A DNA stretch of 64,000 nucleotides from positions 1 to 64,000 of the forward strand of contig NZ_KE340380.1 in the NCBI RefSeq assembly GCF_000413935.1, written 5' to 3'. A model generated the notes under the pieces. The model was given only the letters and a program-made list of their open reading frames with translations, searched no databases and had not been told where the DNA came from. The DNA is from Acinetobacter colistiniresistens (lineage in GTDB: Bacteria > Pseudomonadota > Gammaproteobacteria > Pseudomonadales > Moraxellaceae). This document shows positions 1 to 50,214 of the stretch, in pieces (the first letter of the stretch is position 1; each line of letters opens with the position of its first letter). The translations under genes and the position numbers were made by a program.

Positions 1-24
1 TCCTTTATTATTTTAATTAAAGTA

Positions 25-72
25 GTATGGTGCGAACAGGAATGACTGGTATGGTACGAACAGGAATGACTG
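25..72. repeat. two tandem copies of a 24-bp unit
   Basis: The unit GTATGGTGCGAACAGGAATG plus ACTG occurs twice back to back, differing only by G/A at one position, and the first five bases of a third copy follow. Because 24 is a multiple of three, every frame repeats as an 8-residue peptide. One such frame runs from an ATG at 27 to a TGA at 99-101 and would give a 24-residue peptide with the repeat MVRTGMTG. No convincing ribosome binding site precedes it, so I do not call it a gene. Confidence 0.8.
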
Positions 73-195
73 GTATGTTTATGCAGGAATATGCAGTTTG
101 ACTTTTAATTTTATTTTCATCCGCTCGGAATTTAGTAATCTGGAAGAGATGTCGCTTTTTTACAAAGAGAGATGCGGGGTGAAAGCAAATTATGA

Positions 196-405
196 TTTAT
201 TTATTGGATTGGTTTTGCTGACCTAGTTCCATTCTCTGTAGCGCAGGTTCCAATCGCCCTTGGCGTTTATGCTTGCAATGGTGCATCTTAAGTTCTTGCT
301 TGGATCAGGAGTCAGTTATATAACGGAACTTTAATTCCAATGACCAACGGCTTAGTAATTTTATATGGTTTGGCTTTCGTGATGATACTATATGAGAAAA
401 AGTAG
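196..405 (+). pseudogene. possible remnant of a small membrane protein gene
   Basis: One plus-strand frame stays open except for a single TAA at 289-291 and ends at TAG 403-405. Its translation is hydrophobic: a segment around YWIGFADLVPFSVAQ, then, after the stop, a segment around GLVILYGLAFVMILYEKK ending in a charged tail. That pattern (membrane segment plus lysine-rich end) resembles the C-terminal part of an integral membrane protein. There is no usable start codon with a ribosome binding site, and I cannot assign a family. The pseudogene call is an inference; it could be chance. Confidence 0.25.
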
Positions 406-30840: not shown

Positions 30841-30916
30841 TGGCTCTCCCACCTGGGCTCGAACCAGGGACCTGCGGATTAACAGTCCGTCGCTCTACCG
30901 ACTGAGCTATGGGAGA
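30841..30916 (-). tRNA. tRNA-Asn (GTT)
   Basis: 76 nt, cloverleaf complete on the minus strand. The acceptor stem TCTCCCA pairs with TGGGAGA and CCA is encoded. The anticodon loop is CTGTTAATC with anticodon GTT. D-arm and TpsiC (GGTTCGAGCC) are canonical. Confidence 0.97.
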
Positions 30917-30925
30917 ATAGTAGAT

Positions 30926-31001
30926 TGGCTCTCCAACCTGGGCTCGAACCAGGGACCTGCGGATTAACAGTCCGTCGCTCTACCGACTGAGCTATTGGAG
31001 A
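30926..31001 (-). tRNA. tRNA-Asn (GTT), second copy
   Basis: 76 nt, same anticodon and body as the neighbouring copy; the only differences are a compensated acceptor-stem pair (TCTCCAA with TTGGAGA). The two genes are 9 bp apart and are probably processed from one transcript. Confidence 0.97.
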
Positions 31002-45447: not shown

Positions 45448-46143
45448 TTAGCGTAATTTTGCTAACCAATCACCGAGCATTTGTACTATTTGTACCAGCA
45501 GCAATAATACGATTACGGTTAAAATCACGACACTGGTGTCAAAACGTTGGTAACCATACGAAATGGCCAAGTCACCAATACCGCCTGCACCCACTGCACC
45601 AGCCATTGCCGTTGCACCGATCAGGGAAATTGTACCTGTGGTTAAGTTTAAAATCAGAGAGCTACGTGCTTCTGGAATAATAAACTTAAAAATAATTTGC
45701 CAAGGCGAGGCACCCATTGCCTGAGCCGATTCAACAATGCCTTCATTTACTTCAAGTAATGAAGTTTCAATTAAACGACCGAGATATGGGCCGACATAAA
45801 TGGTTAAAGGCACAATTGCAGCCCACGTCCCAATTGAAGTTCCAACTAACATTTTGGTCAGTGGAATAACGGCAATCAGTAAGATAATGAAGGGAAGGGA
45901 GCGTAGCGCGTTGACGATTGGATTGAGAAAATAATAAATCGCACGATTTTGTAAAATGCCGCCAGTACGTGTCACCACTAAGGTGATGCCTTGAATCAAG
46001 CCCCAAATACAACCAAACAGTAGCGAGAAAAACACCATTTGGAAGGTTTCTTGCAAGGCTGTGACAAACTGGTCAATCGATAGCGAGCTATGCCAAAATG
46101 GTGCTGTGACTTCGGTCAGCCATTGTACAATTAAATCTCTCAT
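45448..46143 (-). CDS. metI: methionine ABC transporter permease MetI
   Basis: The membrane subunit of the D/L-methionine importer. 231 residues, five predicted membrane helices, with LPFIILLIAVIPLTKMLVGTSIGTWAA near residue 80 and the EAA-like docking loop EGIVESAQAMGASPWQIIFKFIIPEA near 140. It overlaps the metN stop in ATGA, so translation is coupled. Last gene of metQ-metN-metI. Confidence 0.95.
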   Translation of the reverse strand: MRDLIVQWLTEVTAPFWHSSLSIDQFVTALQETFQMVFFSLLFGCIWGLIQGITLVVTRTGGILQNRAIYYFLNPIVNALRSLPFIILLIAVIPLTKMLVGTSIGTWAAIVPLTIYVGPYLGRLIETSLLEVNEGIVESAQAMGASPWQIIFKFIIPEARSSLILNLTTGTISLIGATAMAGAVGAGGIGDLAISYGYQRFDTSVVILTVIVLLLLVQIVQMLGDWLAKLR

Positions 46144-47168
46144 TGGCTTACCACTCCAGACTGTTCAACTTTCACCCCTTGGCGCTCAAGAAACGCCACA
46201 GTTTCTTGAATCATGAGTGGATCACCCAATAGCTGGATAAACATTTGACCAATTACCGTACCGTTAATTTCGGTCATATTGGCAAACAAAATATTCAAAC
46301 TGATATCAAACTGCTTAATTGCAGCTTGGATCACGGTTTCCTGCGCCGATGTGCCTAAAAACTGTAAGCTATAAATACTATTATGATGCTGATGCTCAAG
46401 ATTATTCAGAATGTTAATTGGTAATTGTTGTTGCAAAACCGTTTGAATAAAGGTTTTGGTGGTTGGGTGTTGGGGCTGACTGAAGATATCCAGTGTTGGG
46501 CCAGTTTCAATCACATGACCAGCTTCCATCACGGCAACATAATCACAAACAGATTCAATTACATCCATTTCATGAGTCACCATCACAATAGTAATGTTTT
46601 GTTCTTTGTTAATCTTTTTTAACAAGGCTAAAACTGATTTTGTTGTTTGTGGATCAAGTGCAGAGGTGGCTTCGTCACACAATAAGATTTTAGGGTGATT
46701 GGCCAATGCACGTGCAATCCCGACACGTTGTTTTTGACCGCCTGAAAGTTCATCAGGATAAGCATCTTTTTTATGTTTGAGATCGATAAAATCTAGCAGT
46801 TCTGCCAGACGTTTTTCACGCTCAGCTTTACTATGGCCGAGTAATTTAAGTGGCATTTCAATATTTTCAGATACAGTTTTGCTCTGAAGCAGGTTGAAGT
46901 GCTGGAAGATCATGCCGATATTTGCACGTTCTTGACGAAGGGTGCGCGCATCCATTGCAGTAAAGTCTTTTTGATTAATAATGACCTGTCCCTGAGTTGG
47001 GCGCTCAAGTAAATTAATCAAACGGATAAGCGTACTTTTACCTGCACCACTATAGCCGATAATGCCAAAGATACTACCGTCTGGGATCTCTAAATTGATC
47101 TGATCCAACGCATTGATCGTTTGACCTTTCAACTGATAGTGTTTCGAAATGTTTTTAAATTGGATCAT
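46140..47168 (-). CDS. metN: methionine ABC transporter ATP-binding protein MetN
   Basis: Powers methionine import. 342 residues. Walker A is GYSGAGKSTLI near residue 38, signature LSGGQKQRVGIARAL near 140, Walker B ILLCDEATSALD near 161. The C-terminal NIL domain (about 265-340, from SIYSLQFLGTSAQETVIQAA to LERQGVKVEQSG) binds methionine and inhibits transport when methionine is plentiful. It follows metQ with a 72-bp gap that contains a terminator. Confidence 0.96.
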   Translation of the reverse strand: MIQFKNISKHYQLKGQTINALDQINLEIPDGSIFGIIGYSGAGKSTLIRLINLLERPTQGQVIINQKDFTAMDARTLRQERANIGMIFQHFNLLQSKTVSENIEMPLKLLGHSKAEREKRLAELLDFIDLKHKKDAYPDELSGGQKQRVGIARALANHPKILLCDEATSALDPQTTKSVLALLKKINKEQNITIVMVTHEMDVIESVCDYVAVMEAGHVIETGPTLDIFSQPQHPTTKTFIQTVLQQQLPINILNNLEHQHHNSIYSLQFLGTSAQETVIQAAIKQFDISLNILFANMTEINGTVIGQMFIQLLGDPLMIQETVAFLERQGVKVEQSGVVSQ

Positions 47169-47195
47169 GTTCGTCAGTACTATGGCAGAAAAGAA

Positions 47196-47224
47196 AAAAC
47201 AGGCAAAATCACTTTGCCTGTTTT
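47196..47224 (-). terminator. intrinsic terminator between metQ and metN
   Basis: Minus strand: AAAACAGGCAAA, 5-nt loop, TTTGCCTGTTTT with more T's after it. A perfect 12-bp stem placed 16 bp after the metQ stop and 28 bp before the metN start. Confidence 0.8.
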
Positions 47225-47240
47225 ATTTGAGGTTATTATA

Positions 47241-48116
47241 TTACGAATTTGCTTCGGTGAGGTAGCTTGTCGGTTTGTTTACGTCAACTTTAGTACCCGC
47301 GAAGTGTTCTTGAACATATTGCTTCACAGCTTCAGTATGGTAAAGCGCGCCAACTTTTTGCAATACAGGATCATCTTTACGAGATTCAGCCGTTGCCAAT
47401 ACGTTTACGTTTAACTTAGTGCTTTGATCCACTGGCTCATAGAAGATCGCGTCTTTAAGTACGTTTAAACCGCCTTCCATCGCAAGTGTATTACCCAATA
47501 AAATTGCATCAACTTCATCTTTAACACGGACAGCTGTTGCCATTTGAATCGGTTTGATTACGATTTTCTTGCTGTTTTCAATAATATCAGCAGGGGTACC
47601 TTTGACAGGATCAAAGTCAGCTTTTAACTTGATCAAGCCAGCGCTTTGTAAAAGTAATAAAGCACGGGATTCGTTTGCACCGTCATTTGGAATGGCAATC
47701 GTTGCACCTTCTGCAAACTCTTCAACTTTCTTGACTTTGCTTGAGTAGATCCCCATTGGCTCTAAGTAAGTTGTTGAAACAGGCGCAATCTTGTCTTTAT
47801 TTGCAGCATTAAAAGCAACAAGGTAAGCGTAAGATTGGAATGCATTTAAATCAACTTCTTTATTCGCTGCAGCAGTATTCATTGCAACGTAGTCAGTGAA
47901 GTTCTTAATTTCGAGTTTAACGCCAGCAGCTTTGGTTTCAGGCAAAGTCGCAATGTAACGCCAAATATCAGCGTCTGAACCTGTAGAAGCGATTACAACA
48001 GTTTGTAATGCAGCAGCATCACCTTTTTGTTCGGTCGATGCGGTATCTGGTTGTTTACTGCATGCTGCAAGTAATAACACCGATACACTTAAAAAAAGAC
48101 TAATCAGCTTTTTCAT
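47241..48116 (-). CDS. metQ: methionine-binding lipoprotein MetQ
   Basis: The substrate receptor of the methionine importer. 291 residues. The lipoprotein signal ends in lipobox LLAAC (Cys19), so the protein is anchored in the inner membrane facing the periplasm. Family segments are VKLEIKNFTDYVAMNTA, NAFQSYAYL near 95, and PMGIYSSKVKKVEEFAEGATIAIPND near 125. First gene of the unit; a long leader of up to about 270 nt separates it from the likely promoter. Normally metN comes first in enterobacteria, here metQ does. Confidence 0.95.
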   Translation of the reverse strand: MKKLISLFLSVSVLLLAACSKQPDTASTEQKGDAAALQTVVIASTGSDADIWRYIATLPETKAAGVKLEIKNFTDYVAMNTAAANKEVDLNAFQSYAYLVAFNAANKDKIAPVSTTYLEPMGIYSSKVKKVEEFAEGATIAIPNDGANESRALLLLQSAGLIKLKADFDPVKGTPADIIENSKKIVIKPIQMATAVRVKDEVDAILLGNTLAMEGGLNVLKDAIFYEPVDQSTKLNVNVLATAESRKDDPVLQKVGALYHTEAVKQYVQEHFAGTKVDVNKPTSYLTEANS

Positions 48117-48684
48117 GTATAAATCCTAATCGGAATAATGTCGAGAAAATCAGCATTTCTCTAGCATTAATGATTGCAATAGGTTTGTATGTTGTAAATT
48201 GGCATCGGCCTCAAACCATCACGTGAATTATTCTTGAAGTTTGAACAAGAGTCCTTTCCACAACATCAGAAAAATAGATGAATATTCATGTGCCCATTCC
48301 ATAGCTCAGAATAGGGAACATGCGTTGTCCACCTTATGTTTCTAATCGAATTTGGATTTAGCTGCAATTTGTTTTGTTAGGGTGAGTATTCTAACCATTT
48401 GAAACTAATGAAGAAGAATGCCAGGTTAACATAAAAACAACATCTAAAATTTCGGCAATCATACCAACAAATTAGAGCAGGTGACAGTGGAGAAAATGGT
48501 ATTAAAGCGTATAAGAATATGATTATTTAAGGGAAATTGCATATAGAGTAAATATAAATAGATGATAGTTTTATGAATTTTTCTAAAAAGATATTGAGAT
48601 AGATCAATTGAATAATAAATATATATTTTTCTGAATTTTATATTCAAATAATGAATATATAAATTGTATTTATGCTGTTTAAGG
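48117..48684. other. 568-bp region upstream of metQ
   Basis: No gene is convincing here. The metQ-proximal 150 bp hold several inverted repeats (listed separately). The metQ-distal half, about 48420-48680, is very AT-rich and shows no structure that I can name. A weak minus-strand -10 (TAGAAT, 48388-48393) is the best promoter candidate for metQ, giving a leader of roughly 260-270 nt. Confidence 0.45.
48182..48264 (-). promoter_or_regulatory. candidate structured leader of metQ (possible pseudoknot)
   Basis: On the minus strand GTTGT (48264-48260) can pair with ACAAC (48195-48191); inside lie TCTTG/CAAGA, the palindrome TCACGTGA and GGC-CGAT-GCC. GGTTTG (48217-48212) can pair with CAAACC (48187-48182), which crosses the first stem as an H-type pseudoknot. 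The stems are short (5-6 bp) and could be chance. It matches no SAM or SAH riboswitch consensus that I know. Confidence 0.35.
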
Positions 48685-48716
48685 AATAAAAAGCCTTCCG
48701 AAGAAGGCTTTTTATT
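48685..48716 (-). terminator. intrinsic terminator after purD
   Basis: A perfect 14-bp stem, AATAAAAAGCCTTC with GAAGGCTTTTTATT, 9 bp past the purD stop on the minus strand. Confidence 0.85.
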
Positions 48717-48725
48717 GGAAAGTAT

Positions 48726-50012
48726 TTATTCAGCTTTTTCACGTGCAATGGCACGGTAGCCGATGTCACTGCGGTATTGCATCCCCGTAAAGGTGACTTG
48801 ACCACATACTTCTAATGCATTGATTTGCGCTTCAAGTACCGTGTCGCCTAATGCCGTTACGCAAAGTACGCGACCGCCCGCAGTAATGACATGACCATCT
48901 GCGCTCATTGCCGTACCTGCATGGAAAATCTTGGTGTCTTCTGGAGATTGCCCTAGACCTGAAATCACATCGCCTTTGCGCACGGTTTCAGGATAACCGC
49001 CAGCGGCCAGCACAATACCGATCGATTTACGTTCATCCCATTCAGCTTCGCTTGGTAAGTTACCATCGATACCGGCTTCAACCAAATCGACCAAAGATGA
49101 TTTTAAACGCATCATGATTGGTTGGGTTTCAGGATCGCCAAAACGACAGTTGAATTCGATCACACGTGGTTGACCTTGTTCATCAATCATTAAGCCAGCG
49201 TATAAGAAACCAGTGTAAACATGGCCATCTGCTGCCATACCGTCAACGGTAGGGCGCATCACTTCTTTCATAACACGTTCAAAGACTTCTGCGGTTACGA
49301 CTGGCGCAGGAGAGTAAGCACCCATACCACCTGTGTTTGGACCTTCATCACCTTCGAAAATGCGTTTATGATCTTGTGAAGTTGCCATTGGCAAAATGTT
49401 GTTGCCATCGATCATGCAAATGAAGCTGGCTTCTTCACCAGCAAGGAATTGCTCAATCACCACACGTGAGCCTGCATCACCAAATTTGTTGCCTGCAAGC
49501 ATATCGTCAATCGCAGCAAAGGCTTCTTCGTTGCTCATTGCCACGATCACGCCTTTACCTGCAGCTAGACCATCTGCTTTAATTACGATTGGCGCGCCGT
49601 GTTGTTCAACATAGGCTTTAGCCGCAGCAACTTCAGTAAATACATCATAAAAAGCCGTCGGAATGTTATGACGTTTTAAGAAGTGCTTGGCAAATGCTTT
49701 CGAACCTTCAAGCTGTGCAGCATACTGGGTTGGCCCCCAGATTTTTAAGCCTGCTTCACGTGCTGCATCCACCACACCATTCACTAATGGCGCTTCTGGA
49801 CCCACAATGACCAAAGCAACATCATTTGCCTTAGCAAATTCAATAATCGCTGGATTGTCTAAAATATCGAGGTCAATATTTTTACATTTGTCTTCAGTTG
49901 CTGTCCCTGCATTACCTGGTGCAACGAATACTTGAGTGACTTTTGCATCTTGTGCGATTTTCCATGCAAGTGCATGTTCACGGCCACCGCTACCCAAAAC
50001 TAAAATATTCAT
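48726..50012 (-). CDS. purD: phosphoribosylamine-glycine ligase PurD
   Basis: Second step of purine synthesis: joins glycine to phosphoribosylamine with ATP. 428 residues. ATP-grasp family with N-terminal MNILVLGSGGREHALAWK, QVFVAPGNAGTATE near 29, GPEAPLVNGVVDAARE near 73, and the central PIVIKADGLAAGKGVIVA near 135. FNCRFGDPETQPI near 290 is the metal-binding part. It follows purH on the same strand with a palindromic element between. Confidence 0.97.
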   Translation of the reverse strand: MNILVLGSGGREHALAWKIAQDAKVTQVFVAPGNAGTATEDKCKNIDLDILDNPAIIEFAKANDVALVIVGPEAPLVNGVVDAAREAGLKIWGPTQYAAQLEGSKAFAKHFLKRHNIPTAFYDVFTEVAAAKAYVEQHGAPIVIKADGLAAGKGVIVAMSNEEAFAAIDDMLAGNKFGDAGSRVVIEQFLAGEEASFICMIDGNNILPMATSQDHKRIFEGDEGPNTGGMGAYSPAPVVTAEVFERVMKEVMRPTVDGMAADGHVYTGFLYAGLMIDEQGQPRVIEFNCRFGDPETQPIMMRLKSSLVDLVEAGIDGNLPSEAEWDERKSIGIVLAAGGYPETVRKGDVISGLGQSPEDTKIFHAGTAMSADGHVITAGGRVLCVTALGDTVLEAQINALEVCGQVTFTGMQYRSDIGYRAIAREKAE

Positions 50013-50068: not shown

Positions 50069-50184
50069 TCCCTCTTAACCTCACCCTTGCGTAACTACAA
50101 TCGTTCCCCATCTCCTAAGAGGAGAGGGAACCCATATTGATATTGGTGTAGTCTCCCTCCTTTTAGGAGGGAGATTTAGAGGGA
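50069..50184. repeat. multi-hairpin palindromic (REP-like) element, copy B
   Basis: Outer arms TCCCTCT (50069-50075) and AGAGGGA (50178-50184) enclose two hairpins: GTTCCC..TCTCC/GGAGA..GGGAAC (50103-50131) and TCTCCCTCC/GGAGGGAGA (50152-50174). Composition and architecture resemble the element at 15249-15369. It separates purH from purD. Confidence 0.6.
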
Positions 50185-50214
50185 GGTAAATAAGACGGAA
50201 TTTTTAAAGTAGTA

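Follow-up and report, generated by a model that had tools for sequence, protein, structure and literature searches.

The gene metQ of Acinetobacter colistiniresistens, which encodes part of a presumed methionine importer, is preceded by a long leader that can be folded into several helices. Does this leader sense a ligand, or does its structure serve the mRNA in another way? The original prediction for this locus described a leader of about 260 nt containing a pseudoknot. It suggested control by SAM, methionine or tRNA-Met, possibly through an undescribed class of riboswitch. In this study, the metQ leader in a stretch of 64,000 nucleotides (the window) was compared with its counterparts in the genus, and the pairing in it was measured against simulated and shuffled sequences.

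Materials and Methods

The metQ loci came from 27 named Acinetobacter records and from a protein search that found metQ in at least 166 of 175 genomes of the genus; 120 further upstream regions were retrieved, two of which end early at contig ends. Promoter and leader were examined in 150 of the genomes with metQ. A promoter was recognisable before 130 leaders, which were reduced to 73 non-redundant ones. Alignment A1 consists of 28 distinct leaders of the window's lineage (from 30), aligned by sequence only; L075, L076 and the more distant L043-L047 were left out because they are hard to align. Alignment A2 contains 23 of these 28 leaders. The tree-based nulls are alignments simulated along the tree with purpose-written scripts, and the values quoted are those of a null weighted by column variability unless stated otherwise.

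Results

The importer genes lie on the minus strand in the order metQ, metN and metI. The product of metQ (47241-48116, minus) is a substrate-binding lipoprotein of the NlpA/MetQ family (Pfam Lipoprotein_9, E 2.9e-66), and its match to the TIGR00363 MetQ/NlpA model (E 1.4e-37) falls under the curated cut-off. The next gene, metN (46140-47168, minus), encodes an ABC ATPase with a NIL domain (ABC_MetN, E 3.1e-112, under the cut-off), and metI (45448-46143, minus) encodes the permease (MetI, E 6.1e-58; 196 bits against a cut-off of 212). Since all three proteins of 45448-48116 score under the NCBIfam curated cut-offs, they may represent a divergent branch, and their substrate should not be presumed. 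Solved structures of relatives include proteins named methionine-binding MetQ, and methionine as the substrate would follow from family membership alone.

Upstream of metQ, on the same strand, lies purD, which ends at 48726. A terminator-like hairpin behind purD (GCCTTC-TTCG-GAAGGC and a T-run, 48686-48712, minus) stands between this gene and the metQ promoter; it is absent from the output of the consensus terminator scan. Between purD and its own upstream gene, 50080-50190 holds many short inverted repeats (CCTCTCC..GGAGAGG, CCTCCTTTTAGGAGG), possibly an intergenic repeat family. Elsewhere in the window, a pair of tRNA-Asn (GTT) genes stands in tandem (30841-31001, minus).

The metQ promoter was recognised by an extended -10 element, TTGGTATGAT (48458-48467, minus), through a motif match and the consensus of 130 promoters, which reads CaCTATat.gaatata...TTATTG.TATGAT. 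The motif TTATTGnTATGAT was matched at 11 or more of its 12 positions upstream of metQ in 118 of 150 genomes of the genus, compared with 1 of 150 after mononucleotide shuffling. Transcription would start 7 nt downstream of the -10 element, at about 48451. Because the promoter places the start there, the predicted leader is about 335 nt long (48117-48451, minus), instead of the 260 nt proposed originally. Predicted lengths range from 87 to 335 nt across the 118 genomes in which the promoter motif was matched. A proximal promoter candidate (TTTACA-17-AATCAT, 48198-48170) was discarded because its -10 element is lost in relatives (GATTCC in L037 and L039). Short leader peptides from the ATGs at 48443 and 48289 were discarded as well; their starts or frames, read by eye, are missing in the relatives L035, L036 and L069.

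Genus-wide, CaCTATat sits 26 nt upstream of TATGAT; a good -35 element is lacking. The window form, CACTGT (48484-48489, minus), was located from the window sequence and the 130-promoter consensus, and may be where a regulator acts on the metQ promoter. Some species carry the full palindrome CTATATTGAATATAG at this place, and a full CACTATATTGAATATAG-like dyad is present in some, for example G016 and G052; the window dyad is degenerate (CACTGTCACC). A dyad within one mismatch was found in 11 of 60 genomes. By coordinates 7 of these lie at the metQ promoter, and the ORFs downstream of the other 4, read by eye, are unlike methionine genes.

The best-supported structure in this leader lies outside the interval to which the pseudoknot had been assigned (48182-48264). 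It is a 5'-terminal stem, P1, formed by TTTAGATGT (5' arm, 48440-48448, minus) and GCAGCTAAA (3' arm, 48357-48365, minus). It was first found by RNAalifold on the 28 leaders of A1, and both arms were then assessed against tree-based nulls. Its first paired base would lie about 3 nt from the 5' end predicted from the promoter. Every one of the 28 leaders forms 7 or all 8 of the pairs, 97.8% of cells are paired, and no simulated alignment was as well paired (0/300 and 0/400). Compensatory changes occur at 5 of the 8 pairs, with both sides altered, for example, to UAGAUGAA/UUCAUCUA in L037 and to UUUAGCUGUA/UACAGCUAAA in L038. P1 also ranked first in a purpose-written scan of all 9-column helices with one mismatch allowed, a shape chosen after RNAalifold had shown P1; its 5 compensatory pairs exceed 60 of 60 nulls, in which the maximum was 2 in 60 simulations (95% threshold) or 3 in 60 (90% threshold). 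The cells changed on both sides number 11, and 11 of 400 nulls reach that count. Within P1 lies the hairpin P2 (48386-48421, minus; 48421-48415 with 48392-48386). In the 23 sequences of A2 it is 86.7% paired, as high a value as 1 of 500 nulls gave, and it has 4 compensatory pairs, as many as in 9 of 500. Taken jointly, P1 and P2 were better paired than every null (0/500). Pairing kept with compensatory changes, which marks a structured leader under selection, was found for P1 and for P1 and P2 together.

The tests that started from no particular helix were empty. A covariation test of all column pairs with an R-scape-like null yielded nothing significant (best E 0.55), and a scan for 7-column helices gave 4, no excess over the 3.3 of the nulls. 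No helix was prominent in close clusters of 9, 8, 8, 7 and 6 other leaders, clusters of at least 6 being scanned. P1 is missing from the four helices listed for the window's own cluster of 22 leaders, so the compensatory changes would stem from members that diverge more. Taken by itself, the P1 domain of the window folds no better than shuffles (z -0.48); the whole leader reaches z -1.28, and its minimum free energy (MFE) structure is without P1.

Folding was also compared across relatives. In 16 representatives hand-chosen from the 28, the 5' domain, the interval 48182-48264 (nested pairing allowed) and a hairpin before the Shine-Dalgarno sequence each had z below -1 in 15, with mean z of -2.73, -2.23 and -2.35; the stretch between gave -1.70. 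For the first 100 nt, mean z was -2.02 among the 73 non-redundant leaders, of which 73% lay below -1. The comparison values were -0.60 upstream of the promoter, -0.95 in the middle (40 leaders) and -0.95 in the last 100 nt. On their own, the first 60 nt gave only -0.72. The expected number of pairs closing the 5' end averaged 6.61 in these leaders, against 3.97 in shuffled ones. In 25 of the 73, at most 4 of 40 shuffles were as high; 14 have no closed 5' end, with at least 20 of 40 shuffles as high.

A swap test was applied to 56 leaders of at least 200 nt, in which the first 25 nt were paired with positions +46..110 of their own or of an unrelated species. Own-species pairing was better (z -8.5, 0 of 2000 permutations), and 24 of the 56 fell in the best tenth. 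With the 5' arm narrowed to +3..16, z was -6.0. Other segment pairs gave -1.1 to -3.7; the control pair +101..125 / +136..200 lies at -3.7, and the test is thus not perfectly clean. From the swap test and the folding of the first 100 nt, a 5'-end stem looks general in the genus. Judging from these comparisons, it is probably kept genus-wide although its sequence changes, but not in every leader.

At the sequence level the leader is not conserved in the genus; by eye, the leaders of other clades can be aligned with that of the window only at the promoter and the start region. A well conserved mid-leader block, CATGAATATTCATC (48277-48290, minus), which holds a TGAAnnTTCA dyad, was seen in the 28 relatives of A1. 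It lies outside the hairpins, between them, and they do not account for it; nor is it an ORF, since L069 has no start codon there and L036 has TTG in its place. L081 has lost about 235 nt that would separate the promoter-proximal stretch from the hairpin before the Shine-Dalgarno sequence; the promoter and this hairpin are kept. Within the lineage that includes L078-L080, this one species represents a natural deletion of most of the metQ leader.

The helices described originally do exist at their coordinates, with metQ on the minus strand. GTTGT (48264-48260) pairs with ACAAC (48195-48191) and can be extended to ATGTTGT/ACAACAT (48266-48260/48195-48189). GGTTTG (48217-48212) pairs with CAAACC (48187-48182) and crosses the first helix. 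Of the five helices proposed, the two that were named are present and cross, and such crossing is common by chance: when the 83-nt interval was shuffled with its dinucleotides kept, crossing Watson-Crick helices of 5 and 6 bp appeared in 986 of 3000 cases, and a leader of 260 nt produced them in 950 of 1000 shuffles. In the 28 relatives, GGTTTG/CAAACC (48182-48217, minus) is 70.1% paired, at the null mean of about 71%, and the value was reached or exceeded by 197/300 and 242/400 nulls. Since this second helix is complete in 2 of 28 leaders and kept no better than the null, the pseudoknot was rejected. It is a product of chance; an H-type pseudoknot has both crossing helices conserved or covarying, and this pattern was not found.

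GTTGT/ACAAC itself has modest support, from its conservation, as the base of a nested hairpin, P3 (48189-48266, minus). It is 92.9% paired (nulls as high: 7/300 and 12/400), and 25 of 28 relatives form at least 6 of the 7 pairs. Its 2 compensatory pairs are ordinary, as 32 of 60 nulls have at least 2. P3 encloses P4 (48245-48239 with 48216-48210, minus), the nested alternative to the pseudoknot; 3 of 400 nulls were as good as P3 with P4, versus 57 of 400 for the pseudoknot combination. In the window the interval folds as a single nested hairpin (-19.7 kcal/mol, z -2.0), in which GGUUUG pairs with an upstream CAAAC in place of its pseudoknot partner. When more of the first helix is included (48182-48270), z is -2.53. 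P3 and P4 are absent from the RNAalifold predictions on A1, where columns 120-210, 200-305 and 195-350 gave no structure; the latter two ranges contain P3/P4. The P3/P4 hairpin is probably present in the window's lineage.

The Shine-Dalgarno sequence of metQ is AGGA (48124-48127, minus) within TTAGGATTTATAC-ATG, and AGGA is present in 28 of 28 rows. The hairpin before it (TAATG..GAGAAA / TTTCTC..CATTA, 48136-48169, minus) is 92.2% paired, a level matched by 9/300 and 12/400 nulls, and has z -2.24 in the window. These values suggest modest conservation. RNAalifold did not predict this hairpin and placed other pairing there (including A1 columns 300-376), and in the genus-wide swap test it gave z -1.1, within controls. 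In the lineage of L077-L081 it occurs in CAACT/AGTTG, CAACA/TGTTG and CAACC/GGTTG versions. Under a uniform null, P1, P3 and this hairpin were each matched by 0 of 300 simulations, and GGTTTG/CAAACC by 88 of 300.

The 3' arm of P1 overlaps TAAATCC (48354-48360, minus), which is complementary to GGATTTA (48126-48120). In the whole-leader MFE structure of the window, this pairing over the Shine-Dalgarno sequence replaces P1. All 7 pairs are available in 19 of 28 leaders, and 152 of 400 nulls pair as well. Among the 73 leaders, this is the likeliest partner of the Shine-Dalgarno sequence only in the window, L054, L061 and L066. A switch between P1 and this pairing was dismissed on the null comparison, which shows no selective retention.

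The leader was also searched for known regulatory RNAs. At the gathering score, Rfam detected two tRNAs in the window and nothing in the leader, so that no covariance model of a SAM or SAH riboswitch or T-box matched it. This agrees with the original observation that SAM-I, SAM-II, SAM-III, SAM-IV and SAH consensus are not matched. A lax scan of 48000-48800 gave 6 matches, all on the opposite strand, in the area of the purD terminator and outside the leader, and 20 leaders of other lineages gave one sub-threshold, unrelated match (ctRNA_p42d in L081). Under stricter filters, a covariance model of the 5' domain (R1) matched 27 of 173 Acinetobacter genomes, once each and, by coordinates, always just upstream of metQ; in its own genome it found no second site at E <= 10. 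In a family-wide draw of 119 genomes, it matched 5 Acinetobacter genomes and one elsewhere. This only match outside the genus (G234, E 0.0097) precedes an ORF taken by eye for YbaB and was set aside as chance.

No aptamer-like core shared across clades was seen by eye, nor any nucleotide core conserved in divergent carriers, as a new riboswitch would have. The hairpins drift in sequence and retain their pairing, which is opposite to what an aptamer core shows. By purpose-set criteria, intrinsic terminators were found in 9 of 73 leaders against 8.25 expected from shuffles; at three energy thresholds, observed and expected numbers were 9/8.25, 5/3.25 and 1/0.5. A consensus terminator scan of 48000-48800 returned none, a zero that carries little weight as the evident purD hairpin was missed too. 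These counts give no signal of a terminator hairpin with a U-run, the sign of an attenuator.

Discussion

We identified a conserved promoter and a covarying 5'-terminal stem in the metQ leader. The promoter motif, the covariation of P1/P2 and the chance nature of the pseudoknot emerge from comparison of sequences. We consider it about an even chance (roughly 0.5) that metQNI is expressed from the conserved extended -10 promoter with a long leader of nested hairpins, which controls mRNA level and translation in cis and does not sense a ligand. In this reading, the mRNA of the window would begin with the leader of about 335 nt. In the lineage of the window, this leader would fold into P1/P2 at the 5' end, probably P3/P4, and one hairpin before the Shine-Dalgarno sequence. 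Selection would retain the pairing while the sequence drifts. The 5'-terminal stem most likely would shield the mRNA from 5'-end-dependent decay, and the last hairpin might tune the entry of ribosomes. A first paired base so close to the 5' end, as predicted here, is an arrangement that protects mRNAs in E. coli. The review PMC3997798 describes that a 5' hairpin added to the bla mRNA stabilises it and that such a hairpin impedes RppH.

What remains of the proposal of a structured leader under control is a long leader with structural constraint. A riboswitch is unsupported, the strongest structure lies elsewhere and the pseudoknot fails. The covariation that was to be sought in homologous leaders is present as compensatory changes in P1/P2, and GGTTTG/CAAACC stays at the null mean. 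The leader is best described as structured and probably acting on mRNA stability or translation.

A new riboswitch or attenuator that responds to methionine, SAM or tRNA-Met, perhaps operating through P1 and TAAATCC-GGATTTA, would suit the position of an importer gene after a long structured leader. P1 and the anti-Shine-Dalgarno pairing are mutually exclusive in the window, where the latter belongs to the MFE structure; its seven pairs are available in most of the 28 relatives. We nevertheless regard this as very unlikely: the pairing is not selectively kept and is the likeliest partner in few leaders, no Rfam family matches, and the element occupies one place per genome, before one gene in one genus. 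A common core is lacking to the eye, terminators are not enriched, and L081 does without the interior. The broader idea of a genus-specific cis-regulatory RNA, its sequence almost free, in which P1 and UAAAUCC-GGAUUUA toggle translation according to a metabolite, a small RNA or the transcription rate, is likewise a long shot. The leader might instead be a target or source of Hfq-type small RNAs, with the hairpins shaping accessible sites. For A. baumannii, Hfq and networks of RNA-RNA contacts have been described (PMC11472050, PMC12802169), and the conserved block between the hairpins might offer such a site. However, metQ, metN and methionine are absent from the main text of both papers, and the leader sequence is unconserved across the genus; we consider this possible but unlikely.

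Methionine control, if any, might also be exerted at the promoter by a regulator on the dyad, the leader being mostly passive. The position of CaCTATat, the lack of a good -35 element and the full dyads in G016 and G052 speak for this. It is rather improbable, however, because the covarying P1/P2 and the swap test would be left unexplained, the window dyad is degenerate, few genomes carry a close dyad, and the remaining sites precede ORFs unlike methionine genes. The structure could finally be incidental, a chance folding of AT-rich sequence with pairing inherited from shared ancestry. Crossing helices are common in shuffles, and the blind tests (all pairs, 7 columns, clusters) were empty. The tree-based nulls for P1 and for P1 with P2 and the cross-species swap test make this highly improbable.

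The tests draw a line between the real and the chance parts of a leader that looks like a riboswitch. The point of interest is a 5'-end stem, probably retained throughout Acinetobacter although its sequence changes; otherwise the leader is ordinary in kind. Among the matches listed in the Acinetobacter literature, titles and the beginnings of abstracts contained nothing on a metQ leader. If the stem sets the life span of the mRNA, the many species and the L081 deletion would provide a natural series for studying 5'-end protection outside enterobacteria.

Several known systems resemble this leader in part. Like the SAM-I, SAM-II, SAM-III, SAM-IV and SAH riboswitches and the T-box, it is a structured leader before a methionine-related transport gene; unlike them, it has no Rfam match and no conserved core that was seen, and it serves one gene in one genus. 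MetR and MetJ control methionine genes at the promoter, and the possible regulator dyad at the metQ promoter recalls this type of control. The MetR consensus is TGAA-N5-TTCA, which the metQ dyad does not fit. The stabilising 5'-terminal stem-loops of ompA and papA in E. coli are a further comparison; work on both genes appears in the reference list of PMC3997798. In metQ, unlike in these, the stem sequence varies between species, further hairpins follow, and the role in stability is a predicted one. In both cases the mRNA encodes an envelope-associated protein, and the stem of metQ is likewise predicted to begin a few bases from the 5' end.
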